DNA of 64,000 nt from Bryum argenteum. Its lineage: Eukaryota; Streptophyta; Bryopsida; Bryales; Bryaceae. A model generated the notes under the pieces. It made no database searches, was not told the DNA's origin, and saw only the letters and a program-made list of their open reading frames with translations. Positions 3,065 through 45,375 of this stretch are shown here, in pieces (position 1 is the first letter of the stretch; every line of letters starts with the position of its first letter). The stretch covers positions 10,933,013-10,997,012 of the forward strand of contig CM073324.1 in NCBI GenBank assembly GCA_037043015.1, read 5' to 3'. The position numbers and the translations under genes are program-made.

Positions 3065-3144
3065 TGATTTTGGAAATTGAAAGAGGGGGAGGAGAGAAAT
3101 AGAGGAAGTGTGGCTTCATGTGGCTCATGGCCAAACCATCCAAC

Positions 3145-7758: not shown

Positions 7759-8375
7759 CTTGACTTACCACTTCCTGTACAAAAATATCAAGTCAGGCAC
7801 ACCTCTCTGCAAACCCTAAAAGCGATCAACGACCCCTCGAGCGATTCAAAGCTGACTTGAAATCACCAAAGAGAATGGAAATTCGCAAAGATCTCAGAGT
7901 CTCTCTAAAAACCCTAAAACCAGATCGACCGACCGGCCACTTAAACGCAATATTTCAGACTGTGGACCCAATGCCGTGAAAGTAAAAGTAACGGAGAAAT
8001 TCCATAGCATCTCGAGCAGAGGGAAACCTTACGTGCGCCGATGGATATGAGATTGGTCGATCGATCGTCCTCTTCGCAACAACCCCCGAGGTCGCGGAAT
8101 CGAGGGTATGGTACCAGATTTGAATCGCCTGGAATTCTGATTATCCTCCGATTACGCTTCTCGCACCATCGACCACGGGATCGATGCGTGAAGCCCTGCG
8201 CACTGCATCTGTTAGAGAATCGTAGAGAAGCTCTCGAAGCAAAGCATTGCCACAACCAAGCAACCAGCCAGACTGTCTAGTCACCACTCTGCCAGCTTTA
8301 CTGGAAAATCAGGCTGATTTGGAGCCCTTACGTGTGAACCCCCAATTTGGCATTGTACTCCCTCTGTCCCATTAA
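7759..8375. promoter_or_regulatory. Upstream region of VHA-D (leader and promoter)
   Basis: The sequence reads towards VHA-D on the minus strand. A pyrimidine-rich stretch ending in TTTTTGTACAG just before the start codon looks like a 3' splice site of a leader intron. The GC-richer part at about 8030-8280 may hold the non-coding first exon and core promoter. No TATA box could be assigned with confidence. Open frames here overlap on both strands and look spurious. Confidence 0.4.
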
Positions 8376-8610
8376 CCCTTAAACGTCAGACCCAGCCCGA
8401 GGGGTTGGGATTTTTTTTGGAGAGAATCTTGCTCATAACTTACACTCCATTATACCAAATGGAATTTTTAGAATTCCAAACTGAGCACCTTAAAGAGATC
8501 TATACTTTCTTAGAATAGAGTTCAAGCAAATTAAAAACAAAATAATGCTAAAAATGGAGTTTAAAAGAGATTTTGGGTGTGGTATCAGGAAAGCATATGA
8601 CGTTTAAGGG
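8376..8610. mobile_element. TTAA-flanked piggyBac-type MITE (235 bp)
   Basis: Perfect 13-bp terminal inverted repeats CCCTTAAACGTCA (8376-8388) and TGACGTTTAAGGG (8598-8610) are flanked by TTAA on both sides (8372-8375 and 8611-8614). TTAA duplication is the signature of piggyBac transposases. There is no coding capacity. A hairpin, CCCAGCCC / GGGTTGGG, lies at 8391-8409, 15 nt from the left tip, the same place as in other elements of this window. Confidence 0.9.
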
Positions 8611-8849
8611 TTAACTTTGTCAAGTAGGTTCTTTCAAATCTACCTATTCAGATCAAATTGAGACAACTTACAGGACGTAAATCCTTGCAAATAAAATTTG
8701 CCTTCTTATCGCAGATAGGTTGTGAAGCGTAATCCCTTGTTGTGCAGATTTTCCCTCGTAGTAGGGAATTACGAAAATATTATTTGCTACCTTCCTTCGG
8801 TTTTGAGTTTCATCACTATTTTGGATGATTCATGTAGACCTTTATGTCT
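8611..8849. other. Short intergenic stretch, nothing recognised
   Basis: It lies between the 235-bp MITE and the foldback at 8850. There is no gene, repeat or conserved motif that I can support. Confidence 0.5.
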
Positions 8850-20286: not shown

Positions 20287-20959
20287 TTAACCATTGTAGT
20301 TGGAGGCCCAGAGGAATTAGTTTGGCACTGAGCAAGCTCCCCATTGACACAATCTTGATTGCACCAAGCTGAAACATTTCAAACACTATGGAGTTTTCCC
20401 AATATTTGAGGCATGAAATGACGTTTTGGAAAGCTATGGAAAAACTCTACGACGCACAAAAGGTTTCATCTTTGTGTAAGTCAAAGGACCAAAGTCTAAT
20501 CGACCCGATATGGGCCTCACTCACCTTTAGGGGTTAATAATATGAAAGTTCCGAGAACGGCAATGGGGGGCGTAAGCGTTAATGGGTACCTCAATAGACT
20601 AATCTTGGTAGGGGTGAGGAGAATATACATATTATTACAGCAACACTATTTTTCGATGCATACCCAATTAGTGTCACTAGATAGATAGAACAGTGTAATG
20701 GTAAATTGGCGCCAATCCAAAATTGGCTATAGAAGGAATAGACTGTTCGCTACTACAGGACAGTAGTAAACCTCGAATACCAGGAATACTAGATTCGTTT
20801 TTTAAAAACAATATAAAACCAAAATTTAATGAATTAATCATTTGAGAAAAATCCATGCAATAACCTCAGTAGCAAAGCTACATAGCAGAGAACATTTTTA
20901 TATATTCTTAAAAATTTCCCGGAATACGTTTAGAGTATTTTTTAAATGGTTCTTTTTAA

Positions 20960-21219
20960 CCCCTAACTCTCCTTGTTGAAAAACGGTCGAAGTCACAAAA
21001 TTTGACCTTCCTTTAGATTCAACTCAAAAAATCTTATTCCAAGCATTATTTGAAAGATTCGACCGTAAGATCTCAAAGTTCACTTGACATTTGTCCCACG
21101 TACCAAATTTGAACCGTTCATTCTTCCCAATTTGTGAGATTATAATGGTCAAAGTTGGCTGAGTTTTTCTACTGTGGGAACCTCCAAAACCCATTTCGGG
21201 TTTTAAGGAGAGTTAGGGG
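20960..21219. mobile_element. TTAA-flanked piggyBac-type MITE (260 bp)
   Basis: Perfect 13-bp TIRs CCCCTAACTCTCC (20,960-20,972) and GGAGAGTTAGGGG (21,207-21,219), with TTAA at 20,956-20,959 and 21,220-21,223. A hairpin AAAACCC-ATTTC-GGGTTTT lies at 21,186-21,204, 15 nt from the right tip. No coding capacity. Confidence 0.9.
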
Positions 21220-21689
21220 TTAATTTCTTTTTTAGTGTTGCTGTAAAAATAGTGTTGGGAAACTTCTTCAGGGGGATTTACCAAGTTGCTAGGAAACAAT
21301 AGAACTCATGATTAATTTACTCCTACGACGTGCCCTCATTTTCTGTTTTATGAAAAGAAAACTGAAATATTCGCTTCTGTGTTCCAGGGGATTTTTGTCT
21401 GCTGCCCAAGTTAGGCAAGTAATTTATAGCCCAATGTGATCTGTGCATATGTTTTACCTTATTGTTTTTAAATTCCACCGGCATTCTTCCTTACTTTTCC
21501 TCATTACTTCCTTCTTTTTATCCTATTTATGTAACCAATTACATTCCTGACTACTCTTGTGGTACGTATGAAAAAGACATGGAAAAAGAAGATACTTTGA
21601 CTTAAAAAAAAGAATTTGCGTAGTCAGATTCGAATTTTAGAAGCTTCATCTAGAAAATTAAGGTTTATAGTCGAAAACGGGCAATTGGA

Positions 21690-21870
21690 ATTTAAATTTC
21701 TTGGACTATTTTTTTGAAAAAAATATTCATAACAATACTACTACTCAAATTTCCAAAAATTCCAAGTTGGGAAATTTGACCAAATTTACAACATCAGCCT
21801 TCAAACTTTACAACATTAGATGTCAAATTCTGCCCCCAAAATAAAATTCATCAACTTTGACTTAAAAACA
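21690..21870 (-). repeat. Inverted fragment of the repeat at 27.8-28.0 kb
   Basis: In reverse complement this matches about 27,830-28,000, the DNA that lies immediately left of the full piggyBac element. It is a dispersed non-coding repeat, probably another decayed TTAA element, with no intact ends seen here. Confidence 0.6.
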
Positions 21871-22231
21871 AAGAGAAGAAAGAAGAAGAAGACTACTTTT
21901 CTTATAAAAACTTTTGAATGGAGATGCTTGTCGTTGGTAAAATTGTATGCAAAAGATGGATAGTTTTCATGACATGGAACCGCAGTCTTGTTCGAGGCCT
22001 TTGCCTATTATTCAAATTTGGAGGAGCAGCCGATTTAGTGTGGATTGTTATTAGTGTAGATTGTCCTGAAAAATAATTGAGGGTCTGATTAGAGGCGGAA
22101 AAACTCAAAATTCAAAAAGCCAAGGACCTATGTTTGTGAATAGTTATATTCGCCACTAAGAGTTACTATACTAGTGGCAAAATGTTAAAATTTGAATCAA
22201 GCATGTATATCCACCACATTGGCAACATGAA

Positions 22232-23201
22232 CCCCTAAACGTCCCTAGTGTCGAAAAACGACATTTTGGATGAAGGGCGAAAACTTTGAAGAGCCATAAC
22301 TTCTTCATCCAAACTCCGTTTTTGACGAAATTACTTGGGTTAAATCACAAATCAAGTCTAGTTTATGTAAAAAAATTTCAGACTCATAAAATAAAGTATG
22401 AATAAATGGCATGGATTTTAGTGAAGGCAACTTTTGTTTTTGGGTTTTCAAACATTTGGCATGTTTTACCATTGCAAGCCAATTATGTGAAATCTAAAAT
22501 ATTTTTTCGTGAATTTTTTTTCATAGGTTTGATATTTAGATGCATCCCAACAACTTTGTAGTTGGAAGTTTTTTGATCTAGATAACTTTGGTATTGGCTT
22601 TGCAATGATGTTTCTACGATGAAAAAAGTGAAAAAATGGATGATTTTTGAAGAGCTAGATCTCCTTCATCCAACGTTAGATTTTGACTTTATTTTTTGGG
22701 ATGGATTCCAATTATAGTCTATTTTTAGTGGTAGAAACCTTGACCCAATCGAGGATATATTGAAGAAAAGGCATGGGTTTGAGTGCGAGGGGTTTAGTTT
22801 TGGACTATTTCTCCTTTGTAAAATTTTGGGTAGTTTTCACGACTACAAGGCTACTATTTGAGCCAAGATTGTTTTTTGATGAATTTTTTGGTACAAGAGT
22901 GTCTTTGAGATGAAGATGAACAACTTTTTAGTTACTGATTTTTTGATTGCAAATTTCATGTTGGTAGTATTTTCACTTCAAAGTGGAAATGATGGTATTT
23001 TGTAGCGTGTTTTGCGCACTAATATGTTATGATCTCGCAATCTATGAGGTCCCATGAGTCAAGTTTTGGTCCACATGATCTACTACAAGTCTATTACAAG
23101 TTTGTACGGTTGAGATCTGAATAGCTTATCTTTATTTTCATCTATATCACTTTTTTCGAAAATGAGATTTTGGCTAAAAATACCCCAAGGACGTTTAGGG
23201 G
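22232..23201. mobile_element. TTAA-type piggyBac non-autonomous element, family A copy 1 (970 bp)
   Basis: Perfect 13-bp TIRs CCCCTAAACGTCC (22,232-22,244) and GGACGTTTAGGGG (23,189-23,201). The right flank is TTAA (23,202-23,205); the left flank is TGAA (22,228-22,231), one change from TTAA. The hairpin TGTCG-AAAAA-CGACA is at 22,249-22,263. The interior is AT-rich, without a transposase, and closely resembles 23,691-24,801 and 37,177-38,149. Confidence 0.88.
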
Positions 23202-24343
23202 TTAATACTAAAATTCAAGAGTGGATGAAGGATATATACATTTCCATTGTCATGTGTTTTTTACTTCTATTTATTTAGTACAAGAAACTTCTTGCAGTTT
23301 TTTATATTTTGATATTTTTTTTAACAATGATAATTCTTTCAATCTTTCACTAAATAGTTCTTGAACTCTATATTAATTCCTCTAAGTTTTGATATAGCTT
23401 GGTGAGAATTGCAATTGCAAGGCTAAAGGTAAATTGCAATAGTGAAAATTGTCTCAAAGTTTACAAAGGAAAATAGTTCAAATCTAAACTTGTTGCACTA
23501 ATATTTATGTCATATCTTTAAAAAATCTTCAATGAAAGTAAGCTTTCTACAAAAATAAGTAAACTTGAACTAGGTTCCAACCCAGCAGATCAAATTGAAA
23601 TTCAATGATGGATGAGGAAGATACAATTCTTCAAAATTCATGTGTTCTTTTGGGTTGAGTTTTTGGACCTAGGGGGCGCTTAGGTGTTAACCCTCAAACG
23701 TGCAAAATGTCGAAAAACGACATCGTTGATGAAGGACAAAAAAATTGAAGAGCCAAAGTTACTCACTCAGCAGGAGTCTGTTTTGGATGAAATCGCTTGG
23801 GTTGGGTTCTAAATGAAGTCTAGTTTGTGTGATAAAAATTGCGGACCAAGAAAATGCAATAAATGAATAAATGGTATGCATTTTGATGAAAGAAGTTCTT
23901 ATTTTTGAGTTTTCAAACAAGGGGCATGTTTTACCATGGTAAGGCAATTATCGGAAATCAAAAAGATGTATTATGGATTTTTTTTTACAGATTTATGAGC
24001 TTAATATGAAGGCTTACAACTTTCTAGATGGAAGATTTTTGATTCGAACAACTTTGGAATTGAATTTGCGATGTTGTTTCTATGATGAAAAATTAAATAA
24101 ATGGATGATTTTTGAGCAGCTATATCTCCTTCATCCACCGTTAGATTCTGACTTTGTTTTCTAGGATGGTTCCAATTTGAGTCTTGTTCATGTGGTAGAA
24201 ACCTCAACAAAATCGAAAATAAAACAAAGATAAGGCATAGATTTGAGTGCAAAGGGTTGGAGATGTAGACTATTTTATCTTTGTAAATTTTTTGGCAGCT
24301 TCTACCATTGCAAGGCCATTAATTGCGCAAAGAATTTATTATC

Positions 24344-24584: not shown

Positions 24585-24722
24585 ATTGTACGATTGAGAT
24601 TTACAAGATTGTACGATTGAAATTTACAAGATTGTACGATTGAAATTTACAAGATTGTACGATTGAAATTTACAAGATTGTACGATTGAAATTTACAAGA
24701 TTGTACGATTGAGATTTAAATA
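24585..24722. repeat. Minisatellite, 23-bp unit, six copies
   Basis: The unit reads ATTGTACGATTGAAATTTAC plus AAG and is repeated in exact 23-bp register six times, the last copy degenerate. In the sister elements the matching site (near 23,100 and 38,046) has a single unit of the form TTTGTACGGTTGAGAT, so the array arose by expansion after this element diverged. Confidence 0.93.
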
Positions 24723-24805: not shown

Positions 24806-27158
24806 GATTCTTTTGTATAATTAAAATCCAAAAAATAAATCTTGATAATAAATTGGCCTTGCAATATTGAAAGATGCCCATGTTTTAGAAAAATTATTTT
24901 TCCTTTGTTCTTGGCACTATGCATGTTACGAATTCGTTCCATCTTTGTCTGATTATCTTTACTTCAACTACACTTGATTTGACATTAAGTGCAACTTACC
25001 GCATCAAAACTTTTGTCAATCAAGAGAACATGAAACTTCCCAGATGACCCATTAAACTAAATCTAGATTGCCCACAACTTCATGATTGTGTTGCAATGTT
25101 CTTGAATAAATTATTAAAATTTGGAGGGTGACCCGTAAAATTCTCTGATATCAATCACCTCCACATAATAATGGAAAAATATAACATCTTTCTACACGTT
25201 CATATATATGAGTTGGTTGGGGTTATGCACCACAGGCCCTATGAGGAGGTTGTGGGTTCTATTCCCCACGCCAACGTGGTGTTCACCACCATAGTCCACC
25301 CAACTATGGGGAGGGGTCTTTGGACCTTGTTGTGTGGGTACCTCAAAGCCATTCGGGAGATACTATGTCAAGTATCTTTGAGGCACTAGGAACTAGCTAG
25401 AAATTTATGTAGTTACACTATCCATCTTGAAAGGGGGAAGTAGTATTGTTCGAATTTCTCCTTGTCTAGTGAGCATCGAGTTATTAACATTACGGACGGA
25501 CGTTTCATTCACGCCGGGCCCTTTTAAAGGGACCGGAGTTTTTATTGGGGTATAGAATAGGGACAAAGGCTAATTTCCCATCCTTGATGTGAAAAGAACC
25601 CTTGTGACCAGAGTACCATTATCAGTTGGCTTTCAGGTCAGGCAGTTACGCCTCTTACTTTTTGGTACCTGCTCCAGTTGTTACTAATGCCTCACTCCAG
25701 TCAGTCAGGCGATGATTTTTCCATGTTTTGACTTTTATCTTGTCAGGAGTACAGTAAGTGGCGGATGAAAACGGAAATTGGATGAAATATTGGGGACCTG
25801 TCAATCAAACGGATGACATTCGTCGGAGGCTAGGAACCATCTCTGAGCTAGGAGTGTAGAAAAAGTGGTCTCCAGTCAAATTGTGGTGCAGTAACTCAAA
25901 TGATGGACAAAACCAATCATGCTGCCTGGGATCAGTCAAAACTTGTGCAGGACCAATACACAGATAGACTGTTCCATAATGGCACACAGTAAATGGAAGA
26001 ATATAATTACCGTTCGTAGCACACTTTCCGGTTTTGGGCCCGTTCATTTGACCGGAGCTCCCCTCTCCTAATGCCCGCTCTAGAGAGGGGATTACAGCAC
26101 ACCGCCCTCTACAATTCTCACCTTACACAACAAACTGAGGCAACACAAAAGAATTTCATAGAAATGTTGCCGAATGTATAAAAGTGAATTCTACGAATTG
26201 AGTCAAACCGTGCAGCCAAAACCATAAAGTTTCCGTCAAACCGGCCAACCGAAGTTGGAAACGGTGCTACACCGCAGGAGCCCCCGACCCTCCTGGTAAA
26301 CAAACATCTCATGTATGTTGACAATCTCCACTCAAAAAATAAATTTTGCTCCCAGCTATCCTTGTCATGACTATGAAAAAAATAATCTTGGAGCACTTAG
26401 CTAGGGGATGGAATGAGAAATCATGAGAAATTAAGCATATTCTGTAAGCCTTGTGATCCAAACGAAGCTCTTCCTTTGAGGTTTGGATGTTTGAGGATGA
26501 AATTAGAGTCGGATCTTCATTGTAGACTTTGGCTGTGTGGGGGCAGTAGGCAGTAGGGGTATATTGTACGAGAGCGATACATGGCAGTTATCGTTAGTGG
26601 AATACTAATACTAATACACTTGTGCTTCAACTCACGTGATGAGGAATGATGCACTGGACCTGCAAGGACCGGAATCATCATCATCATAATCATCATAAGT
26701 AAACATATGAAGCGTTTACTTACCTCAAGTCAATAAGCTTTCTTCATGCTTTGGTCGGGCAGTTACTACACAACACACCTCAAGTTTGGAAATACCCTTG
26801 AAGAAGATGGTGAATACGGTGTTAGCACTTGCAATCTCTCTCTCTACCTCTACCTAAGCATTGGTGATTTATCTCATTAAACACATATAATGAAATTTTG
26901 TGGGGTGCAACCTTGGTTAGCTGTAAATATTTTGATTAGAACGAACTTGGTTACACTCGTTTTACAGTCTTGGAAGTCCAAGATCCAATTGCACATAAAT
27001 CAGTATGACTTGATATGGTCTACTTTCGAATGCCTTCAGGTGAATTTGAAAAACTTAAGGCTATCAATTACAATGCAAGTGAAATTTTTGTTTGTAAAGG
27101 ACTTTAATTGGTGGCAATGTGTTGGAAGCAACAATATATGTCTAGTCAAGGGATTATA
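24806..27158. other. Intergenic region with a SINE, no gene recognised
   Basis: Apart from the SINE at 25,209-25,541 there is no recognised feature. A minus-strand open frame of 92 codons at 26,396-26,118 has no motif I can name. Confidence 0.5.
25209..25541 (+). mobile_element. tRNA-derived SINE, copy 2
   Basis: Homologous to the SINE at 2699-3064 from the tRNA-like head (B-box-like GGTTCTATTCC near 25,255) to the tail (GGGACCGGAG). The TCTA tail is reduced and no clear target-site duplication was found, so it is probably an older copy. Confidence 0.8.
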
Positions 27159-27170
27159 ATCCCTAAAGAT

Positions 27171-27547
27171 CCTCGAATGAGTTCTTGCGATTTGGAGCAA
27201 CCTAGATGAAGGGGTTAAAGAGTATTATTTTTGCCCAAAAGTTTTCCAAGGTACTCCCCAAGTCCCCATACTGCTAGGTGTATGTGGTAAAATTTTCAAA
27301 GCCACAAGTGCCCAAGAGAGTCAAAATGGGTTTTTTCCTGTTTTGAGCAGCTTAGATGAAGGGGTTGAAATTTATATGTTTGCCTCAAAATTTTACCGAG
27401 TGCTCCCAATACTACAAAATGTATGGGGTAAAATTTGCGAAACTCTACAACATGCCAAAGTAGCAACTTTACATGATCCAGATTTAATAACTGAGAGCCT
27501 AACCGGAGTCCAATGAACCTCAATGTGGTTGATTTTGACTTTAGGGG
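27171..27547. mobile_element. Decayed piggyBac-type MITE, family C
   Basis: The right end is GACTTTAGGGG followed by TTAA (27,548-27,551). A left end TCCCTAAAGATCC begins at about 27,170, but its TTAA is eroded. The interior holds two diverged tandem units of about 150 bp with the phrase TAGATGAAGGGGTT. The same phrase recurs in the left subterminal part of the full piggyBac element (28,083), which ties this MITE to it. Confidence 0.6.
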
Positions 27548-27637
27548 TTAAGTAAAGATTTGCATTGTTTAATACTTTTTAGGTTCAATCACGCGAGTGA
27601 ATAACAACTACTAGGGACAAAATATTGTTGAATTTAA

Positions 27638-28029
27638 CCTTTGAGTGCCCAAGGCATGTCTTCGGTCTCTGAACCTCAAACTGCAATTTTTGACCACCTT
27701 TTAACAATTGAGATATGGTCAAAAACTTTTTAAAAAATTTCTACTTTCAGTTGTAATATTTGAAAGCTTACTACCATCAATACTACCATAAAAAACTTTC
27801 AACAATTGAATTTTTACAATTTGGAAGAATTGTAACGATAAAAGTTGATGAATGTTTTTGGGTGGCAAAAATTTGAAGTCTAATGTTGTAAAGTTTGAAG
27901 GTTGTTGTTGAGAAGTTGGTCAAATTTCCCAAGTTGGATTTTTTAAAAATGTGAGTACTAGTATTATTATGAACATAGTTTTAAAAGATTAGTCCACAAA
28001 TTATATATTTAAATTGCATGTTTTGGACT
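27638..28029. repeat. Possible half of a TTAA element split by the piggyBac insertion
   Basis: It starts with TTAA (27,634-27,637) followed by CCTTTGAGTGCCC, similar to the tip of the MITE at 35,355. No matching right end occurs before the full piggyBac element begins, so the rest may lie beyond 33,711. A related sequence is inverted at 21,690-21,870. Confidence 0.45.
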
Positions 28030-28033
28030 TTAA

Positions 28034-28046
28034 CCCCTAAAGCTCC
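28034..28046 (+). repeat. Left TIR of the piggyBac element
   Basis: CCCCTAAAGCTCC, directly after TTAA. It pairs without mismatch with 33,695-33,707. Confidence 0.93.
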
Positions 28047-28446
28047 AAGAAAGCCGAAATGGCTTTTTGCGTTTCTGGTCAGCCTAGATGAAGAGGTAAA
28101 TTAGAGTATTTAGGGCTGTAATTTGAGGTGGACGTGTGTTATACTACAAGGTATGTGTGGTAAAATTTACAAAGTCATATGACCATTTTAGAATTTTATT
28201 TTAGAAATTTTAGTTTTCAAACCCAAATGGGGCAGTGCGGGCTGGGTGCTCCACCAATTAGAGAGCAACTCGAAAATGGGGCAGCGACCTCGGTCTGCCT
28301 GAAGAATGTGGTGAGGGCAGAGGGTCGAGAGGGGCTCTTGGGGTCGCCGGTGCTTGCCAAATTCAGAACTCTGACAGGGAGCCTGATCTCGCCTTGAAGA
28401 TTTGGAGCCGCCACTAGTAAATGTGAGCAAGGAGGCGGCTCTCAAC

Positions 28447-29631
28447 ATGGAAAGATTTGAATTTCAAACTTTGGATTTGATGAGCAAGCGGCGGTTACAT
28501 TTACAATGCTCTTCAAGCTTTCACAACTTGAACCTCATGAGCTACCTCATACTACAAATTTCACAAATCATCACAATGGAGGGTTCTGTGAACACACATC
28601 TTTTGCCTCAGCTCCCATGTCTATCACAACTTGACATTCTCATAGAATTACATTGCAAGAAAAGAAGCACATCTGAGAACTGTAGATCTGCAAAGCCAAT
28701 ATCGAGTCCACTGAAACTGCAGGGAAGTTGTGGCGAAGAGATTGTCTGTGGCGAGAAGGCTGCCCCTCCGGCGCTGGAGCTGCAGGGAGATAGTGCTCCG
28801 ACAGAGCTAGTCGGGGCAGAGAGGGCTGCTAGAGCAGCGGTGAAGCTGCAAGTGGTCCGACCAGGGGAGGTTGCCGACGCGGAGAGCATCGGAGGTTGGC
28901 GACGTCTGCTCCGACGAAGGTCCACATCGGAGGTCACAGGCGAGTGCTCGGAGGTCACAGGCGAGGTGCTCGGAGGTCCACATCGGAGGTCCACATCGGA
29001 GGTCACAGGCGAGTGCTCCGACGAAGCTGGCGAGGGTGGTTTTCCGGTAAGAGTGGCTGGGCGAGGTGACTGGAAAGTCGCCAGATCGCAGCGGCGGCTA
29101 GATCGCAGCCGGCCAAATAGCAGCGGCGGCCAGATCGCGGCCACATCGCAGTCGCAGGGTGAGTTGCGAAGAGCTGATCACCGGGTAAGGGGAGAGAATA
29201 TCAACAGGTCTGCCGGGGAGTTGCAGCGTTGCTCGAGCCGCCGTCGCCTGTTGTCGCCGGAGCTGCCTGTACGGGCCGATACTGCAGCTTATGCTGTACC
29301 TGCAGCACGTACTGAGTCGTCTAGGACTCGTTTGCATGCTTGGGCGCTGCGGAAACATTTGCATACTCAACAAGTTCATGATCTATTGTTGTTGTTAGAC
29401 CCAAAGCATTTACGTAGCCTAGAGTTGCGCAAGAAATGTAGAGCGTGGCCTCACTCACCACAACCTTGCAATTTCCGCCATCACTTCTACAGGCAGGTTG
29501 CACATGTTTTGGGGTGGGTAGATCAACAAATCTTTGAGGAAGAACTTGTGGACATTGTTAGAAGCACTTGGCCGGATTCTCAAAATGGCACCAAAACGCA
29601 GATCTCACAAGAAGGCAAAACAGGTAAATAA
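28447..29631 (+). CDS. Upstream open frame inside the piggyBac element, unknown
   Basis: 394 residues counted from the first ATG at 28,447; the frame is open further upstream without an ATG. It lies before the transposase and overlaps its first exon (29,585-29,623) in another frame. The middle (about residues 95-230) is Arg-, Gly- and Glu-rich and GC-rich and contains an in-frame 69-bp tandem duplication (units start 28,921 and 28,990, encoding STSEVTGECS twice). The C-terminal part has a more natural composition, with LRKHLHTQQVHDLLLLLD and a Trp- and His-containing tail. I recognise no domain. It may be an accessory protein, captured host sequence, or just the transposase leader. Confidence 0.35.
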   Translation: MERFEFQTLDLMSKRRLHLQCSSSFHNLNLMSYLILQISQIITMEGSVNTHLLPQLPCLSQLDILIELHCKKRSTSENCRSAKPISSPLKLQGSCGEEIVCGEKAAPPALELQGDSAPTELVGAERAARAAVKLQVVRPGEVADAESIGGWRRLLRRRSTSEVTGECSEVTGEVLGGPHRRSTSEVTGECSDEAGEGGFPVRVAGRGDWKVARSQRRLDRSRPNSSGGQIAATSQSQGELRRADHRVRGENINRSAGELQRCSSRRRLLSPELPVRADTAAYAVPAARTESSRTRLHAWALRKHLHTQQVHDLLLLLDPKHLRSLELRKKCRAWPHSPQPCNFRHHFYRQVAHVLGWVDQQIFEEELVDIVRSTWPDSQNGTKTQISQEGKTGK

Positions 29632-32522
29632 GTACTCTAAACTCATAATGCATGACTTCTAAGTTTCATGGAACACACTAAATCTTCAATATTTTTGTGC
29701 AGATGGAGTGGGACGGGATACCGATACGCCGAAGTGCAAGATTGTTTGTGGAACCCGGGCCAAGCACAATCCCTTCCACCCCTCCATCTAGTGAAGACGA
29801 CACTCCTAATCCTCCACGTTATCCTGAACATGAATTGCCTGATCTTGGTCATGGTGTTCAAACTTTTGCTCTCCCAGACACTGAAGTAGATTTCAATATT
29901 GACTACTTTACTTCTCAAGAAAATGCGAGATACTACACAAGCTCTAAAGATCTCATTGACAACGATTCAGACAGTGAAAACGAAAGGGGTGGAGGTCTCG
30001 AAGATCTACTGTGGCCGCCGGAGGTACTGATCCAAGCTCGAAATTACGGAGCTACCGGTTCCAAGGCAAGAGGCGGTCATCGGAGGAGTTCTCTTGCGGC
30101 CGGACTGGCATCAGCGCCGGGGCTCCATCCTGCAGGCGCTTCGACGTCAGGGCTTGCCGGCGGACCAGCATCAGCATCGGAGAAGGCTGCTGGAGGCACT
30201 TCGACGTTGGGGCACGCTGCCGGGAGCAGTCGCTGCCACTCCTCGTTGACGTCGCTGGACCGGGATACTGGGCGCATGCAAGGCGGAGAGCCTGTTTGGA
30301 ACGGCGGGGGAGAGCCTGTCTGCAACGGCAGCACCGAGGCCAACGGTACGGGCTTATTGGCCGTTGCTGAACGGGGCAGCATGGGTCCGGATTGGCCTGA
30401 AGGCGATGCCTCCGAGTTGTTTGCTGACGCAGCGTCGCTGGCAGTAAACGCCGAGATGCTCCATCGGCAGATCCGCTTTTCAAGCCACGCGCCAACTGGG
30501 CAACTCCAGTTTGGGCCAGAGAGTCAACATGATCATGATATGGAGGGTGAGGGTAGAGAGTATATTTTGCCACTGCATGGAGGGGGTGTGGGTAACTTGC
30601 ATAATAATGAGAATCATGATTTATATAACGAAGGTGACCATATTCACATGAATGGGAACGATGGAGGAATCTCACCGTTAGTAAGGAGAAGAGGCAGACA
30701 TGGTATACAAAGTGACTTGAGTGATGACTTGAGTGAGGAGGCTCCGTTGGTTGACAGTGATGTGGAGAGTGATGGTGATGGTCCAAATGTGGGCTCAACC
30801 CACAATCAAACGGGACTAAAGTGGGAGTATAGAGATGAGACTTGGGAAAGTCCCCGTATCATGTATAATCCTCAACCTATCCCGTTTTGTGGTAATAGGA
30901 GAGGCCCTTCAAGAAACTATCGTGTACTTCCCACATTTATGGAGTTGTTTGGTTTATTTTGGACTCCTCAAATCATGTCCAAAATTGTGTTTGAGACAAA
31001 TAGGTATGCTAATACCCCATCGGGTGAAGGTGGACATACTAACGGTGGACCACAATGGTATGATTTGACTATATCCGGTCTACAAGCATTTATGGCATTG
31101 GCTCTTTATATGGGGTTGAAGGTGCAACCCAACAACAAGACTTATTGGATGAGAGATGACTTGTTTCAGTGTAAGCTGATATCTAGCATATACTCAAGAA
31201 ACCGGTTTTGGGATTTGAGGAGATGTTTGCACCTTACTAATATGGAGGGGATGCATAGAGGTGACCCGGGCTATGATAAGATTGGACAAACACGATGGTT
31301 GATAAATAGCATTAGGGAGCGATGCAAAATGGCTTGGTGTCTTGGAAAGCATATTACTATTGACGAAATGATGATCCGGTACAAGGGAACTTATTCCCCT
31401 ATCCGGCAGTATATGCCCAACAAGCCCCAAAAATGGGGCTTGAAAGTATGGTGCTTGACATGTTCTGCTTCTAAGTTTGTGTACAATTTCGAAATTTATT
31501 GTGGCAAGGAGCAAGTTCCCGGTCCTCCTATTCTACCTACTGGGACCGATCCCATAACTTCCAATGCAAATAATGGCTTAGGACCGGGTGCCATAGGCCA
31601 AAATGGAGGAATTCTAGTTAGAGAAGAAGTGGTGGAAGTTTCTAGTACAATTGGGGATGCAAGGTTAGCACACAACGTCGTGATGAGATTACTTGAAGGT
31701 CTTTGGAATGTTGGGCATGTAGTGACCATGGACAATTTTTTCACAAGTGTAGGACTTTTTACAACACTTTTAGAACGTGGCATGTATGCCACCGGTACTA
31801 TACGGGCAAACCGTGTTGGTATTCCTACATGTCTGAAAAATGTCAAAGCCTTCAAAAATGTGCCACAAGGGACAACAATTTCGAAGATGCATGAGTATGG
31901 GAGACTTTCTTGTGTTATGTGGAAAGACAAGAAGCCCGTGCTTCTTCTTTCCACACATGCTATGCCTATTCAAGCACCATGTGAGAAAGTGGTGTGTGTT
32001 CCCCGTCGGAATGGTGCAATTAGAGAGATGGTCCAAACTTCACCGGTTTTGCATGAATACACAACTCACATGCGTGGAGTTGATGTCGCCGATCAACTCC
32101 GTGCATCTTATTCTTGCCAAGTGCGGAGCCACAAATGGTGGCACCGCATCTTTTTCTTCTTGTTGGATGTCACCGTGTGCAACATGTACATTTACTACTT
32201 GGAGTGTGTGAGACATGTCAATTCCCACCGACGTGCGGTGACCCCTATGACCCACTTACAATTCAAGAAGGGGTTGTGTGAAGCCTTACTAGCGGGGTGG
32301 AATATGAGAAGTTCGGAACCAGAGGACTTTGCGCCATTACCGGTCGAACCGGTAATTTGTGTTCCAAGGTATACCACATTACGGCGCAAATGTGTGGTGT
32401 GCAAAGTCCGTGAACCACATTACTTTTGCTCCAAGTGTGGCAATAAGTGGATGTGCCTAAAGCAAGGCTGCTTTGAGCAATGGCACACGGCCCTTGCTAC
32501 ACGGCGCCAACTCCCTAATTGA
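29585..32522 (+). CDS. piggyBac transposase (DDE_Tnp_1_7 family)
   Basis: Two exons, 29585-29623 and 29703-32522, joined in phase 0 across a 79-bp GT-AG intron, give 952 residues. This start was chosen because exon 1 adds MAPKRRSHKKAKQ, a basic stretch that looks like a nuclear localisation signal, in frame with exon 2. Residues 14-400 are variable, with acidic and Ala/Gly-rich stretches. The catalytic domain starts near 405. The metal-binding aspartates expected for piggyBac are present: Asp567 (ITIDEMMIRYKG), Asp690 (VTMDNFFTS), and Asp807 with Asp810 (RGVDVADQL). A C-terminal cysteine-rich zinc-binding domain starts at Cys910 (CVVC, then CSKC, C-x4-C and a final His), as in other piggyBac enzymes, where it binds the ends. 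The enzyme excises and inserts DNA at TTAA without leaving a footprint. There are no stops or frameshifts. Confidence 0.95.
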
Positions 32523-33694
32523 TTACATCTGGAGCGGTGGTGCTGGTGATATGGAGCTGGCCCTTGGCCTTATCCAGTTGGAGTAGCATCCGATGTATGG
32601 GGTGCAACATGCATGCCCCCCTCCAATTACAGGCAGGGACTGTCCATTCTCCTCCCCTTATTGTGGCAGCCGGGGCACGCTGCCTTGGGAACTTCGGGAG
32701 CTCCGCCCCCCCTCCCCTTGCTTTGACCAACGAGCTCACATCAGGGAGCTTCGAGAACCTCGGGGAGCTCCGGTCCCCCTCCCCTTGGTCTGACAGGCGC
32801 TCATCGGAGGTTGGCGACGTGTCGCAGGCAGCTGCCTCGGTTCCCAAGTTTGAAGCTCCAATTTGATTCCCTGACGCGGCCCCGATCTGCTTTGCAAGCG
32901 CCCCCATCAATCTGTCAGTAGCTATATTGAAGGGAACCCAAATGGGAGCTCCGGGAACTATGATCTACTACGTATGATAGCTCACACATATAGCCCTTTT
33001 TAGCTTGCTTTTATGATAGGAGTAATGGCAGCAGGCCTCTGCCACTCTTTTTGTAATGGGTCCATTGTAGTAAAAGGGGGTTCCAACATTGCATTGCTGC
33101 CCCTCCTCCTTTTATATCAATTTTACATGGCTTTACTTCAAAAATTCATAGGAATTTGAGATTTTGGAATTATTGGAAAAACATTTCGTCTAAATTTTTC
33201 TTTCATACAACTCCCTCCATCCACCGTTCACTTTTGTAAGAAGAATTCAGCTTCACGTGGTATTTGATTATGTCCCCAATTTGTACAAGTACATGTCACA
33301 TAGACCATGTTCTACAAATAAAATTAGATGAAGCTTCTAAAAAGTGATGCAATAGTCAAAATTTGGCATGAAGGTGCCCAACTTAGTTACCTACATGGAA
33401 AAAAATATTAGCAAAATGTTTGGGATAATAATCATCAAGTCCCCCCTACGCACCATTTACACCATGCCATTCGGGCAAAGCCAAAAAAAACTTTTCAATC
33501 AACTTTGAACGTTATGATCTCACAAATGGTAAAGATCCAACGGTTGAAATTTGACATGAAAGTTCTGATTGTAGGTACCTACAAGATCTTACGGTTGGAG
33601 CTACAAATAAACTCAAAAAAACTCGACCACATCTCAAAGTGAACAAGGTGTCAAAAAATCGCAGTTTTTGGACTTGGGAGTCCCAAAACATGCC

Positions 33695-33707
33695 GGAGCT
33701 TTAGGGG
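33695..33707 (-). repeat. Right TIR of the piggyBac element
   Basis: GGAGCTTTAGGGG, directly followed by TTAA. Exact reverse complement of the left TIR. Confidence 0.93.
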
Positions 33708-33711
33708 TTAA

Positions 33712-34119: not shown

Positions 34120-34665
34120 GGTCAAAACCTTGAATACGAGGAGCACATTCAAACATACATTGCATCGTTCCAAGTTCACCCAACATGACTGTACACAGAG
34201 CTTTACAGTAGAGATCACAAAAGGAATGTAGATGAGCAAAAGAAAGAAAAGAAAGAAGAGTGTCTGTCGTGCAAAGGGGTGGAAAATGACACTGAGAATC
34301 TACGGGAGATGCGAATCAATGGTAATATTCCGCGGACGTTGAGGAAAGAAGGCGGAGCTTAATCGGGGAGGCTAGCTTGCGGGAGTGCGGGGTTGGAGTT
34401 GATCGCGAATTAGAATTTGGCGCTTCAGTGGCCACAATTATCAAAAGTTCAACATATGGAATATGCTGCCACTGTCGGGAACCGCTCCCACTGGTGCTCC
34501 GTGTTCAATCGGGAAAAATATTTTCCTGGTTTACTGTCCAACCACCTATTTCAGGGCTGCACTTGTTATGAGGCAGAATTCACTTTGCTTGAAATTATGG
34601 AATGTGTGGTTTACTAATTTTACACTAATTAGCAAGGATGAAATGCAAATTATAGTTTCACCTAA

Positions 34666-35988
34666 AGGTACGTTCCCACTTGGCCTTAGAGGTGGTGTTA
34701 GAAGGTGGTCTTATCTCCTTAAAAGAGTGTGTGTCCACACCTACATTCTTTAGTAATTACCAATCCTACATGGATGCCCACATGGCACACTCTAAAACTT
34801 GGAGGACAAAAAAAATATTAGCTAGTATTTGGGAGGACAAAAGATAGTTGAGCATTAGTAGGCAAGTGTTAAGGAAGCACCACAATTAGAAATATTCTCA
34901 AGTTTTGAAGACTTAAGAGTGGTTTTAGTTAATGGGGCCTTTGAGGAGCCATTATGTAATTGAGGCTACTTTTCAAGACACTTTTCCAAGCCTCATTGAT
35001 GAGGCCTTCCCTAAGAATAAGGAATTTCCCTAAAATTGTGGAGGTCTTAAGTTTTAATGTATGCTCTTATCAAAGGCCAATGGGAAGGGGCCTTAAACCA
35101 GGTACTTCATGTAAGTATGTGGTACTAAAGGCCCCTTCCCACCTGGCCTTTGATAAGAGCATACATTAAAACTTAAGATCTCCACAATTTTGGGGAAATT
35201 CCTTATTCTTAGGGAAGGCCTCATCAATGAGGCTTGGAAAAGTGTTTTGAAAAGTAGCCTCAATTACATAATGGCTCCTCAAAGGCCCCATTAACTAAAA
35301 CCACTCTTAAGTCTTCAAAACTTGAGAATATTTCTAATTGTGGTGCTTCCTTAACCCTTAAGTGCCCACGGTGTCGTTTTTCGACATTTTGGATGTAAGG
35401 CTCCGTCTTTGGTGCACAACCCCACTTTCATCCCATCGATTTTTCATCCGCCGTTTTTTTTGCTCAACTCCTCGGTGGGTTTACTCTACTCCCTCCTTGG
35501 ATAAATAGCAAAAACTTTGATCCTCAATTTGTGAGAGTGGGCGAAAGAGATTTTTCATGAAAGTTTTGGTGGTGTGATCTTCACCCCTTTTTTGCATGGA
35601 TCTTGAAATCCATACCTCCAAATGGCATGCAACTCAGAGGTCATACTAATTGCCATGCTCCAAAAAAGATCCTACGGTTGGATTTTCCATTTTCATCTTT
35701 TATTTGTTTTTACGCAGTTTTGAAAAAATCAGCATTATTACCAATTGTTAGGAGCTTTACCCCCCCTTGGGCGTTTAGGGGTTAACACTTGCCTACTAAT
35801 GCTCAACTATCTTTTGTCCTCCCAAATACTAGCTAATATTTTTTTTGTCCTCCAAGTTTTAGAGTGTGCCATGTGGGCATCCATGTAGGATTGGTAATTA
35901 CTAAAGAATGTAGGTGTGGACACACACTCTTTTAAGGAGATAAGACCACCTTCTAACACCACCTCTAAGGCCAAGTGGGAACGTACCT
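34666..35988. mobile_element. Palindromic foldback element with nested MITE
   Basis: Two nearly perfect arms of about 430 bp (34,666-35,095, and 35,128-35,988 minus the insertion) face each other across a loop of about 32 bp. The tips read AGGTACGTTCCCACTTGGCC on each strand, and TAA flanks both sides (34,663-34,665 and 35,989-35,991). A 3-bp TAA duplication suggests the PIF/Harbinger superfamily, but the tips are not typical, so the class is uncertain. The right arm is interrupted by a piggyBac-type MITE at 35,355-35,781. There is no coding capacity. The transcript would be a long hairpin. Confidence 0.85.
35355..35781. mobile_element. TTAA-flanked piggyBac-type MITE (427 bp) nested in a palindrome arm
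   Basis: Tips CCCTTAAGTGCCC (35,355-35,367) and GGGCGTTTAGGGG (35,769-35,781) match with two differences, and TTAA flanks both sides (35,351-35,354 and 35,782-35,785). The other palindrome arm still carries the unfilled site CAAGTGTTAAGGAAGC (around 34,863-34,878) with a single TTAA, which proves insertion with TTAA duplication. The family A hairpin occurs at 35,372-35,386 in flipped form, TGTCG-TTTTT-CGACA. Confidence 0.93.
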
Positions 35989-36179
35989 TAAGATCTAGAG
36001 GTTATAGGCAAGGATCTAATGTGGATGCCGGTCGGGGTTGCCCACTTGCAAATGGATTTACCCTCCGGACTATTCTCCTTCATTTCTCATCTTCATTAGT
36101 TCTTCACATACCTAATTTCTATTTTTCTTTTATTGTTATACAGAGTAATCTCTAAAATTTCTTGGATTTCTTAACCAAA

Positions 36180-37172: not shown

Positions 37173-37176
37173 TTAA

Positions 37177-38149
37177 CCCTTAAACGCCCACGATGTCGAA
37201 AAACGACATTTTGGATGTACATCAGAAACTTTGAAGAGCCATATCTTCTTCATCCAAGGTCCGTTTTGGATGAAATCACTTGGATTAGGTTCCAAATCAA
37301 GTCTAGTTTGTGTTGTAAAATTTTCAAGACCATACAATAAGGTATGAATTAATGGAATGCACTTTAGTGAAGACAACTCTTGTTTTTGGGTTTCCAAGCA
37401 TGGGGCATGTGTTACCATTGCAAGCTAATTATTTGAAATTAAAAATAGTTTTTCATGAATTTTTTTTCATGGCCATGATTTTAAGGTGATTCTTAACAAC
37501 TTTGTAGTGAGAAGTTTTTTGATCCAAATGATTTTGCTATTGGATTTGCAATGATGTTTTGTCAATAGAAAAAGTGAGAAAATGGATGATATTAGAGGAG
37601 CTATATCTCCCTCATCCACCGTTGGATTTCAACTTAATTTTGTGGGATGGCCTACAATTAGAGTCTAGTCTAAGTGGTAGAAACCTTAACAAGATCGAAG
37701 ATGTTTTGAAGATAAGGCATGAAATTGAATGCAAAGGGTCTAGTTTTGGACTATTTTTCCTTTGTAAAATGTTCGATAGTTTTTACCATTGCATGGCTTT
37801 TATTTGAGCCAAGAAATTTTTTTGATGAATTTTTGTTGGTTAAAGGACTTATTAAGATGAAGGTGAACATCTTTCTAATTGGTGATTTTTTCATTGCAAT
37901 AGGTATATTGGTAGCATTTCCACCTCAAAGTGAAAATGATGAAATTTTGCAGTTTGTTTTTGATATTAATATGTTATGATCTCCCCATCTATAAGGCCTC
38001 ATGACTCAAATTTTGGTCCACATGATCTTCGATAAGTCTATTACAAGTTTGTACGGTTGAGATCTTAATAGCTTCTCTTGATTTTCATCTATGACGATTT
38101 TTATAGAAATGTGCTTTTCCTTCTAAAAATATGCTCGGGCGTTTAGGGG
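37177..38149. mobile_element. TTAA-flanked piggyBac non-autonomous element, family A copy 3 (973 bp)
   Basis: TTAA at 37,173-37,176 and 38,150-38,153. TIRs CCCTTAAACGCCC (37,177-37,189) and GGGCGTTTAGGGG (38,137-38,149) differ at one position. The hairpin TGTCG-AAAAA-CGACA lies at 37,194-37,208. Similar length and interior to 22,232-23,201. No transposase. Confidence 0.9.
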
Positions 38150-38153
38150 TTAA

Positions 38154-40734
38154 TACAAAGGCTAGTATTTGACAAGTGTACACCAAATCTTAACCCCTAA
38201 CTTGCACGTACAAGTTTGGTACCAGATCCTAAGGTTGCCTAAAACAACATCACATTATAATCTAATCCACCTTGCATTAATTCAAAGAAAGTTGAAAATC
38301 AAGAAAAGAAAATTGAGGCCCCCATAAGTATTGCGAAGCTCTAGGAGGAGGAATAATAATCCACACCAATACACGCGCACTCTAGCCTTAAAAAAGCCAT
38401 GCGAGAGCATCCAGGAATTCTGAATAGCCCGTTAAAAAATTGGGGCTGTCCCGGGATCTCGAATCTCCCATACAATCTTTGAACGCTCAATTTGGTGTAA
38501 CCGCTCCCTTGCAATAGATTTCACTTGCGGTTTGCTTGCATTTTATTAGCATGGTATTGCCTTTACTTTTATTATTTGTATAATTTTATTACTTTTTAAC
38601 TTTCTTTGGAACACAATTAAAGGATAACCTTTACCGCTTGGGAAAAAGTAGTACAAGGGTCATGGCTCCGCCAAGTTTGGCGAAGCCATACATGTCTAGG
38701 TTAACCCCTAAAGTTGAAAGCCTCCCAAAAGTGTCAAAACTCCTCAAAATCACCCTCTTTTAGTGCAGGATGAAAATTTTCAACTTTTCACATAATCTCC
38801 AGTATGTAACGTTAAGATCTTATACCTAACTTGTCCATGTATGTGTGTACCAAAACTTAGTTTCAAATACTTTACCAATTGTGAGATCACTTGAAAATGA
38901 AGTTTTTTACCCTTGTTGCAAAATGGGTTTAAAGTTTCTTGTGAGCCTAAAAAACCAATTTTTAGAGTAAATTTGAATTGTGGCTCTTCAATTTCTTGTT
39001 CCCAAGTGAGTTGGGAACATGTTTGTGCAATTTTTACCCTCATGAGGCCTAAAAAAATTGCTTGAGTATTCACATGGAGGTCTACTAAATTTCAACTTCA
39101 AAGGCTCCTCTTTGATAATAAAAATGGCATGTGAAGTATAATTGGATGAAAGATCCAATTTATGAGATCATGCCTGAAAACCCTATTTCTAAACTAAACT
39201 GCATCTAGTTTAGTCCCCACACTAAACTGCCAAACTAGATGATCAGTCATCCACTTGGCTACAACCTGATTTTTCACACCATGTTTTTTGAAAAAGGGGA
39301 CATGATGTACTTAGTTACTAGACTGCATTTCTTCTAATAGGCCCAATGGCAAGATAACTCATTATACTCGGAAACATGGCACCTTAGCCATGGCATAAAA
39401 TACGTTGTTGATCAATGAAATGTTGCACTAGTTCTCTCCAAGCGTTAACTGCAACTGCTCTATGCCAAATGGTCCAAATTATACCCACTTCCTTTCGAGT
39501 ATGGGTTTTGTTCCAAGTATTTAGCCATCTAAGTTCATATTCAACAGCGAGGACTCCACTCCATTACTTTTCAACCACTGGAGGAGGCAAGTCATGTTTG
39601 CTAAGAATTTCTCTACCAGATATTCCATAAGAGAGATATAAGTACATGTGCCCTATATTAGAATGTCGCAATCGAGGGAAAAATTTTCAAACTGCGCGAG
39701 CAGAGGGTTCTCTAAAAATGGAAACAGGAATTGAATCATCTTCCCTCGCTTTATTGACAGGACATGGAAACGGGCAGCGCTGCAGCAGCAGTGTAGCTAC
39801 ATTTCACGTCGTAGCGTGTGTCAAGCGTTTCCGGGTTCTCATGCGCCCACTGCTGAATCTAGGATCCTCGGAATGCAGGGTGTACTGTGCAGTCAGGAGC
39901 GAAGCGGTGAACCTCAACAGCAGAGAGACAGTTGATCAATTAATTAGCAATTTCGCAGCTCCAGGCAATAATGGAAAGATGCACCCAGTAAAAACATGTT
40001 GGAAGATTCTCTCTGCTTTAGCAAATGGATCTGACGATTGTTTTTGGTCAGGGAACTGATTGATCGATCGATGCATTGCTACAAAGCACCAAAAATCTTC
40101 CTACAAAGCTCCAAAATCTTCCTCCCCAACTCTGCTGATGAGTTGAACAAGGTCAGCCAACCAGCGTGTCTCCGTCACTGCAACCGAACATGACCTGAGA
40201 GTATGAATGAATAGATTTTTTTTAAACCTTGCTAATAATATTAAAATGGCGCATTCAAATTGTCACCAGTCTAAATAAAGCAATCCAATCACTGTTCGCT
40301 GCAGGCAGGGAAAACCCCACAGCTGACCCTAACATAGAATGTCACAATCAATCAGTTACTGCAGGACTGCAGAAACTCGGCCAGCTCTGCCAACTGTAAG
40401 TTACCCCTGAATAAAGGACAAAGTAACCAGAAGCAACGCAGTCAATAGCTCAGTCATGTCAACATATAACACATCGAGCAACGAATTCTAATGCTAGAAT
40501 GGCAGATAATTGCAGGGACCACAGAATGTACGAGTGGGTGAAGGAGAATATATGTAGAGAGAAATGAGAAAACTAACTTAGTGTGGGCGGCACACCATAA
40601 AAGTCTCGATTGCGTTTGCGTACTTGCGCAGGATTGACTCATGAGGAAAGGGTGGAGGACTGCGGCCTTTTGCCGTATTGTGTAGCATTGACGACGACCC
40701 TGACATGAGGCATTCTCGTGGGGGGAACGCCCAG
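38154..40734. other. Repeat-derived and intergenic DNA upstream of bHLH copy 2
   Basis: A TTAACCCCTAA end is at 38,190-38,200 with no partner found. An inverted partial family B element starts with TTAA plus CCCCTAAAGTTG at 38,701-38,716 and runs to about 39,150. From 39.2 to 40.7 kb I see no gene; a plus-strand open frame at 39,646-40,059 has no known domain. The last few hundred bases are presumably the promoter of bHLH copy 2 and are unrelated to that of copy 1. Confidence 0.5.
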
Positions 40735-43035
40735 TCCCGACAACGAAGACTGAACTCAGTGGCGTATTCATATTTTCTAGTAGTATCATAGTGGGACACA
40801 ACAATGGAGAACAACCTGCGGGGCTTGGGGGGCCACTACTGCAGCCTCACACTGGATCCGTCCAAGGGCGGCCTGGCGTTGCAAGAGGCCAGCACACAGC
40901 ACTCGCTGCAACAATTGTCGCATGACCCCAGCTTCGCAGAGCGCGCGGCCAAGTACTCAACGTTCGGGAACGCGCGCTACGCGTCTCACGGATACTCGTC
41001 GTTCGACACTGGGAGGCTGCGAGACGTGCTGGACACTGAGAACATGCGCGCCATCCCCAGGAGCGCCAGCTTCTCGGGGTCACAGTACTCGGAGGACGAG
41101 GCCAAGGCGGCAGTGCGTCGCGGGAGTCCTGGTGTGGAAGCCATTGAGGGAGCGAAGCGGGAGGCGTCCGGCGACGCTGCGACGTCGAAGGAGAACTCCG
41201 GGGCTCCGCAGCGGAAGCGGAAAGGGAGCGTGGAGGGCAAAGGCGAGGAGTCCGCCGTTTCCAATGGCAGCGAGATGACGACTTCCACTGGCACTGAGTC
41301 GGTGGAAGCCCCAGAGCAGTCGTCCGGGTTGAAGCGGCAGCGATCCGACGGCAAAGTCAAGGCCGAGAGCAGTGGCAGTGAGAATTCCGGCGACTCCAGC
41401 CCCCGATCCACCTTGAAGGGCGCCACCTCCAAAGCTCCCCAGCTCGACCAGGTCCCGAAGCAGGACTACATCCATGTCCGGGCCCGCCGAGGCCAGGCCA
41501 CCGACAGTCACAGCCTTGCCGAACGGGTAAAGCATCCCAACACATTACAAATGACACAAAGTGCAATGCAGCTGATTGTATCTTCACTTGCACTTTTCTG
41601 CGGTACAAAGTGTTAACATTGCATGCATGTCGCCTCTCAGGTTCGTCGGGAAAAGATAAGCGAGCGCATGAAGTTTCTACAAGATCTAGTGCCAGGCTGC
41701 AGCAAGGTACAATAATATCACACAACTCAAAAGCTTGTGTAGTGAAGTGCACCTCGAGAGCTTGAACTTCTCAAAGCTTGCACTCTTCCTAGTCTGCAAT
41801 TTCAAGGGTGATGTTGCAGAATTGTCCCTCGGCTCAGAAAGTTGTGAACATTGGCATTGCAGGTGACGGGCAAGGCTGTGATGTTGGACGAGATCATCAA
41901 CTACGTGCAGTCATTGCAGAGGCAAATCGAGTTTCTGTCCATGAAACTGGCCGCTGTGAATCCGCGGCTGGATTACAACTACGACCAGTTTCTGGGGAAG
42001 GAGCTGTTGCAGTCGCGGTCTCCCGAAACCACGCTGCTTGGGCCCGACCCACTGGGATATGGCGATCTGCACCACGGCCATGGCCAGCTGCCCATGCAGC
42101 TGCCCAACTTGCCCATGGACGGCCTGTGCGATGCGTATCTACGGCGCTCTATGAGCGTGCCATCCATGGCTTCGTTCGTGTCGGATGATCACTTCAATGA
42201 CCCTCTCTCTCAGGTAAACTCCCGGACACTGCACTCAACATTGTTCGCCGCGTTCTCCTTGGAGAAATGTGTTAACCCGAGAGGTGAATGATCCGCAGGC
42301 TGTAGGACTGTGCAACGGAGACCTGCAAAGTGTTGTGGAGATGGGATTCATCCAAGGCAGGCAGGGGCTGGGACTAGGCACGCCACTCAGTCATGGTGAG
42401 TAGATTTCCCTCAACAACTCTGTGCAAGGAGCTCCATGTGAGACGCATGTTCTTACCGACGGCAATGTGCGCAGGGTCGAGCATGTGTTTACCGGGGAAG
42501 TTGAAGGTGGAGTTGTGAGGAGGACGATGGAGGGGAAGTAGCAACACAGCCGTCTCGTAGACAAAGCAAAGAAACTAGAAGCATTTGACTGTACCATAGC
42601 AGCAACACGAAGAAAACGGAGGGTGCCACCAACTGATTAACATTTATCCGAGCAATCGATTACGTTGGCAACCCTTGGGCCACAGAAACAGCCGAGCACA
42701 GGAGTCGAATGGAGTGGTTTTCGACGACAGTGAAATGGGGACTGTGTACAGCAGATTTTTGGAGCTGATTAGAAGCTGATTAGTATGTGATTAGCATGCA
42801 CTGATTAGCGCACATTGATGATGATATTTTTTGGACTGCGAACCAATGCTACCGCAGCAGCATGTGTGGTAGGGTAGATAATGGTGATCCTCGATGATGC
42901 ACCGCAGACAGTCCCATGACTAACCAACTGAAGCTTATTATTCCAGTATTCACTATTCATTCAATAAACCTTTCTGCATGTGCCCTGACTCCGATTGCTT
43001 GTTTGCATGACATCATTCATGCACTCCCCTCTGCG
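40735..43035 (+). repeat. Right copy of the 2.3-kb inverted bHLH duplication
   Basis: Reverse-complement match to 12,400-14,700. Introns and 3' flank are also nearly identical, so the event is recent, or else the copies have been homogenised, or one is an assembly duplicate. Similarity starts about 70 bp before the ATG at 40,804. Confidence 0.9.
40804..42518 (+). CDS. bHLH transcription factor, CIB-like (copy 2)
   Basis: Five exons, 40804-41526, 41641-41706, 41863-42213, 42299-42395 and 42475-42518, with GT-AG junctions throughout, giving 426 residues. Domain structure is the same as in copy 1: low-complexity N-terminus, basic region with His236, Glu240 and Arg244, helix-loop-helix to about residue 290, and a C-terminal tail ending in LPGKLKVEL. 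The three differences from copy 1 are Glu148, Leu214 and His334, all outside the DNA-binding domain. No stop, frameshift or damaged splice site was found. Because the upstream DNA differs from that of copy 1, the two genes may be expressed differently. The likely role is nuclear G-box or E-box binding as a homo- or heterodimer. Confidence 0.92.
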
Positions 43036-45142: not shown

Positions 45143-45375
45143 GAAGGTCCCTCAAGCCTTGGCTTGATGGTTAGGGCTAATGGCCCCCAATGAGGAGGTC
45201 GTTAGTTCCACTCCCCATGCTGGTGTGGAGCTCACCACCATAGTCCACCCAACTATGGTAGGGGGTTCTTGGACCTTGTTGTATGGGTACCTCAAATCCC
45301 TTTGGGGGTATACCATGTTGTGTATCTCTATGACACTAGTGGCTAGGGAGGAATTAGCATAGTGTTCACCGTGAG
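45143..45375 (+). mobile_element. tRNA-derived SINE, copy 3 (3'-truncated)
   Basis: Matches the first two thirds of the SINE at 2699-3064, from the A-box-like region (GGCTTGATGGTTAGG) past the conserved CACCACCATAGTCCACCC. The B box is altered. The tail region present in the other copies is missing. Confidence 0.8.

Follow-up and report, generated by a model that had tools for sequence, protein, structure and literature searches.

Known piggyBac elements and the element under study

The piggyBac transposon is in wide use for scar-free genome engineering, and work on it has established both the hairpin chemistry by which it moves and the seamless character of its excision. The present analysis concerns an element of this superfamily located at positions 28034..33707 of a 64-kb stretch of contig CM073324.1 (the whole of this stretch is referred to below as the window), which an earlier sequence-only reading had described as a complete, apparently intact piggyBac in a plant genome. 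There is high confidence that this is a cut-and-paste transposon which is, or was until recently, autonomous, and that a streptophyte genome is its native setting.

Among the described systems, piggyBac itself (PDB 6x67), presumably the Trichoplusia ni protein, showed 22–23% identity in structural alignments with the predicted core of the element's transposase. The element is 5.7 kb long, with a modelled protein of at least 952 amino acids and a streptophyte host, whereas piggyBac measures 2,472 bp (as given in the available part of PMC10813416), with a 594-residue chain in 6x67. For piggyBat (PDB 9c0f), which comes from Myotis lucifugus according to the available part of PMC11707139, the corresponding identity was 19–21%, and the chain is of 578 residues in an animal host. 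The size of the element is not by itself new, since animal piggyBacs span 1.23 to 9.51 kb, with transposases of up to 1,316 amino acids (same part of PMC10813416).

Concerning plants, the available passages of the literature call piggyBac occasional in plant genomes such as those of red algae, with limited study in plants (PMC12732532), mention plants among piggyBac hosts (PMC8086355) and list PiggyBac among the angiosperm superfamilies of miniature inverted-repeat transposable elements (PMC10004981). In the fern Ceratopteris richardii, the PiggyBac class amounts to 1,230 copies and 122,417 bp, a land-plant figure from repeat annotation that corresponds to about 100 bp for each copy, and the passage concerned gives no intact transposase (PMC6890710). 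No description of an intact autonomous piggyBac in a streptophyte was found in the passages of the open-access literature that was searched; the element is a new addition to the piggyBac superfamily.

Ends, target sites and empty site

From TTAA to TTAA, the element covers 5,674 bp on the forward strand, its limits (28034..33707) being based on the inverted ends and on an empty-site comparison. Both approaches also place the two target-site copies, at 28030..28033 on the left and 33708..33711 on the right. The left terminal inverted repeat is CCCCTAAAGCTCC (28034..28046, plus strand) and the right one, GGAGCTTTAGGGG (33695..33707, minus strand), matches it perfectly over 13 bp; together with the TTAA, 17 nt are identical at both termini. 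The element thus has the TTAA target-site duplication and the short inverted repeats with a C-rich start that characterise piggyBac, and the TTAA copies, the perfect repeats and the exact borders previously proposed were all recovered in the sequence. The start of these ends is similar, though not identical, to the beetle piggyBac starts CCCT, CCCTTT, CACGTT and CCCATT that appear in the available part of PMC12732532.

A paralogous empty site was found at 21633..21858 on the minus strand, where 186 of 227 columns (82%) match the flanks of the element fused at one TTAA. The alignment is ungapped across the junction and continues 32 bases past it; beyond these 32 bases, the right flank is similar to other repeats of the window (39092-38935 and 19884-19988). 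The site lies about 6 kb away and represents a paralogue that has diverged, as opposed to an allele. As the joined flanks align to it, the borders of the element are defined independently of the inverted repeats.

Transposase and catalytic residues

The gene model consists of a short first exon, MAPKRRSHKKAKQ (29585..29623, plus strand, 39 nt, with an ATG at 29585), a putative GT-AG intron of 79 bp (29624..29702) and a main transposase exon (29703..32522, with the stop codon at 32520-32522). Spliced in silico, this predicted model gives a protein of 952 amino acids without internal stop. The transposase matches the Pfam domain DDE_Tnp_1_7 with an E-value of 3.2e-71 and 240.9 bits, vs. a cut-off of 22.4, which places it in the superfamily, and residues D567, D690, D807 and D810, corresponding to the DDD triad and the fourth Asp, are all present and presumably catalytic. 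In the structure model, the predicted core adopts the piggyBac transposase fold, with structural matches spanning model residues 1-484 to 1-511 and ending before the C-terminal Cys/His region.

In that region, eight Cys/His residues are placed as expected (C910, C913, H919, C922, C925, C931, C936 and H941) and form a candidate cysteine-rich cross-brace zinc finger. The sequence-only reading had announced a two-exon, 952-residue transposase with four Asp, no disabling mutation and a zinc-binding C-terminal cluster: in-silico splicing agreed with the former points and, for the cluster, the residues are indeed there while zinc binding itself stays putative. As a whole, the description of a complete and apparently intact piggyBac is supported by the Pfam match, the ends, the empty site, the predicted fold and the reading frame.

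Perfect ends and an intact frame make transposon activity plausible. By homology with the known piggyBac pathway, the element would move by cut-and-paste at TTAA: the transposase would bind both ends and cut at TTAA via hairpin intermediates, the cut element would reinsert at another TTAA, and excision would restore the TTAA without a scar.

An open run upstream of the transposase

At 28387..29631 on the plus strand, 414 codons stay open in a frame that differs from that of the transposase. As an addition to the explanation given above, this run could be a real first coding exon, for a total of about 1,096-1,185 amino acids, or a second open reading frame (ORF), a proposal to which we give somewhat less than an even chance. 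Its length exceeds everything obtained in 1000 dinucleotide shuffles (largest 378) and 1000 local block shuffles (largest 308), and in a shorter test region (28600-29400) the run of 267 compares with a largest shuffled value of 251. It also contains two good donors, GTAAGA (29047) and GTAAGG (29185), whose phase agrees with that of the acceptor at 29703. The eight spliced models built from donors of the run, which cover the size range just given, are free of internal stops.

Against this larger coding unit, the run matched no Pfam family at any E-value up to 1, and its codon-usage scoring is flat, coding and non-coding frames not being separated. Taken whole, it matched none of 259 other proteins, its C-terminal part giving seven sub-threshold matches (E 0.21-0.93), and the comparison with proteins P0014 and P0016 gave chance-level matches only. 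Moreover, the run contains local repeats, a feature that shuffling destroys, the opposite strand also has an open run of 189 codons, and a complete frame starts from the ATG at 29585 without the upstream run. The open run is thus possibly a longer first exon, possibly a second ORF, and possibly a chance run aided by repeats.

TTAA-ended elements in the window

Ends of the same type are frequent around the element. Counting the element's own two ends, the window contains 8 instances of TTAACCCCTAAA vs. 0.01 expected, and 17 of TTAACCCYTAA vs. 0.06 expected. End pairing gave six pairs, namely the full element, 8372-8614, 20956-21223, 22228-23205, 37173-38153 and 20956-23205, the last of which was dropped as an alternative pairing of ends. 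Twelve comparisons to the full element were then evaluated, with terminal bases removed and 300 shuffles each. In six of them, the score was reached by none of the 300 shuffles: 20956-21223 (both parts), 27634-27870, 27290-27551, 38701-38950 and 20060-20290.

The TTAA-ended element at 20956..21223 (minus strand, 268 bp) is non-autonomous. One part of it is similar to the 46 bp at the left end of the full element and the next part to the ~210 bp at the right end, terminus included, a pattern that suggests derivation by internal deletion from an autonomous relative. By similarity to the full element, a decayed right end of a related element was recognised at 27634..27870 (minus strand), and a left-end-like sequence (27312-27441) within a stretch at 27312..27551 (plus strand) that terminates in TTTAGGGGTTAA. 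The full element or close relatives may have mobilised at least some of the surrounding TTAA-ended, internally deleted elements and, with such shrunken relatives around it, the element gives the impression of long-term residence in this DNA and not of contamination.

Other TTAA-ended elements include one of 981 bp at 37173..38153, with little similarity to the full element past the ends, and one of 243 bp at 8372..8614, without significant similarity past the ends to the full element's right end. The pair at 22228-23205 is ~80% identical to 37173-38153, and its left end reads TGAA. Nested near-perfect palindromes occupy 34662-35992, where 34864-35359 is self-complementary at 95% and 34662-34872 pairs with 35782-35992 at 99.5%; TTAA-type ends at 35351 and 35785 lie within this region. 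A minisatellite with 23-bp units (24585-24718) is flanked by TTAA-type ends at 23687 and 24805, which failed the pairing test.

Several observations weigh against a resident, recently active element surrounded by its own derivatives. The scores of the other six comparisons were reached by 3 to 132 of the 300 shuffles (132 and 14 for 8372-8614, 3 and 38 for 35351-35785, 5 and 3 for 37173-38153); being little alike the full element beyond the ends, these three may belong to other piggyBac families. Nor was another full-length copy that is nearly identical to the element found within the window. Finally, the empty-site paralogue has ACTATAAACC at the position where the joined flanks have ACTTTAAACC, that is, TATA vs. 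TTAA.

Relatives of the transposase

A first protein search returned 31 matches. Five of these are assigned to an organism, namely three fish, a lizard and the oomycete Phytophthora, at 23-28% identity, and the best match, the metagenome protein P0003, showed 57% identity over 98% of the transposase core. A profile search gave 267 matches at E up to 1e-10, including P0194 with 69% identity over 69% of the core. Plant- or alga-named relatives were absent from the 31 matches of the first search as well as from the 120 listed of the 267 profile matches, and none of these 120 bears any organism name. Since named streptophyte proteins are present in the database, this absence is informative. Its weight is limited by the fact that annotators often omit transposons.

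All listed matches of both searches were placed with the window's transposase in a tree of 138 rows, built by a quick method and in which the outgroup did not form one side of any branch. There, the window joins six metagenome transposases (P0194, P0209, P0256, P0250, P0224 and P0003) with a support of 99, the next outward fork having 22; for five of these six, the match extends over no more than 41-69% of the core, and the comparison is one of proteins. In a 32-row FastTree phylogeny with long branches flagged, a fork supported at 99 unites the window with 18 metagenome relatives and leaves outside it the five named rows together with eight more metagenome rows. The nearest relatives of the element among the listed proteins are metagenome-derived. 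The undescribed plant lineage suggested by the sequence-only reading fits these data, the relatives listed by both searches including no plant or alga by name.

That reading had offered horizontal transfer as the other possibility, for which the analysis found no direct evidence. An older transfer is possible, given metagenome relatives without host labels. A recent horizontal transfer that brought an animal or fungal piggyBac to the plant lineage would agree with the occasional plant occurrences mentioned in the available part of PMC12732532 and with the three fish, lizard and oomycete being the sole named relatives in the first search. It is nonetheless improbable: those named relatives stand far below the metagenome ones (57% over the core, 69% over part of it), the window row groups with metagenome rows in both trees, and the related ends around the element are decayed, which suggests that it has been resident for long.

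Host of the element

About 20 kb from the element, the Pfam scan of the window's ORFs revealed a gene for V-ATPase subunit D, a single uninterrupted ORF at 7012-7764 on the minus strand. Its closest listed proteins are metagenome entries (96, 88, 87, 87 and 86%), followed by Marchantia and Riccia (86% and 84%, each over 90% of the query) and by an entry (83% over 89%) whose identifier appears to be that of Spirogloea. No moss- or hornwort-named protein occurs among the 120 listed matches.

A first V-ATPase D tree comprised 45 proteins and the later ones 43 of 121, with P0063, P0084 and P0143 left out and P0120 added; P0084 and P0143 had been long branches in the first tree, placed in the window's open group. 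When a mammalian sequence served as the root for the 43 proteins, the seven-member group containing the window was well supported (100/98), but its position relative to Spirogloea, the liverworts and the vascular plants was without support. Without the outgroup, the window group, P0039 and the liverworts came together in the best tree at 63/12, which amounts to no support. Approximately unbiased (AU) tests rejected neither a grouping of the window group with Spirogloea (p-AU 0.181, or 0.345 when P0039 is included), nor one that unites the liverworts and vascular plants sampled while excluding the window group (0.422), nor a grouping of the window group with liverworts (0.070). These matches and trees identify the host as a streptophyte, its placement as embryophyte or alga being unsupported by them; the plant genome of the sequence-only reading holds in the sense of a streptophyte genome, its placement among land plants being without tree support.

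The same gene bears on assembly or sample contamination, in which the element would derive from another eukaryote. This is very improbable, as a streptophyte gene lies 20 kb away, both flanks match a single paralogous site of the window across the junction, and related ends and a deletion derivative surround the element. Weak evidence in the same direction is that no relative was confirmed in viral contigs (one pattern with 0 matches, another with 58 matches, 0 of them confirmed) or in prokaryote genome contigs (51 pattern matches, 0 confirmed). As for a domesticated, piggyBac-derived host gene, which the intact frame and the large protein could suggest, it can practically be set aside, for the element retains perfect inverted ends and both TTAA copies, unlike typical domesticated piggyBac genes.

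Other features of the window

Pfam scans of 20 other ORFs of the window gave two confident matches, the V-ATPase D gene above and a class 3 lipase domain (PF01764, 3.3e-27) at 49104-49625 on the minus strand, which probably belongs, together with adjacent ORFs (48305-51263), to one gene of several exons. Scans of the window for tRNA genes and Rfam families returned nothing. Two inverted 2.3-kb copies, 99% identical and 26 kb apart, lie at 12411-14700 and 40738-43026, each with a 270-codon ORF; in the one copy scanned, no Pfam match was obtained, and a search of one copy revealed no terminal inverted repeat. A large foldback covers 167-4754, with arms of ~1.6 kb that are 85% alike overall and 98% over 646 bp. 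Lastly, a dispersed repeat (2699-3051, 25237-25545 and 45144-45363), with copies 78-84% identical, contains GGTTCTATTCC, which is reminiscent of a tRNA-type box B, and the repeat is possibly a short interspersed nuclear element.

Significance

Natural piggyBacs of the green lineage are thinly documented in the literature consulted, and a complete copy accompanied by an empty site and a deletion derivative would extend the range of intact elements. The surprise is where the element lives and not how it works, as in mechanism it looks like known piggyBacs. It supplies a candidate plant-lineage transposase and points to many metagenome relatives. More tentatively, and with the odds slightly against it, the element may represent a major undescribed piggyBac lineage, long resident in streptophytes (algae and/or early land plants), whose autonomous copies would have unusually long transposases, with an extra 5' coding exon or a second ORF, and would have seeded swarms of TTAA-ended miniature elements in their hosts.
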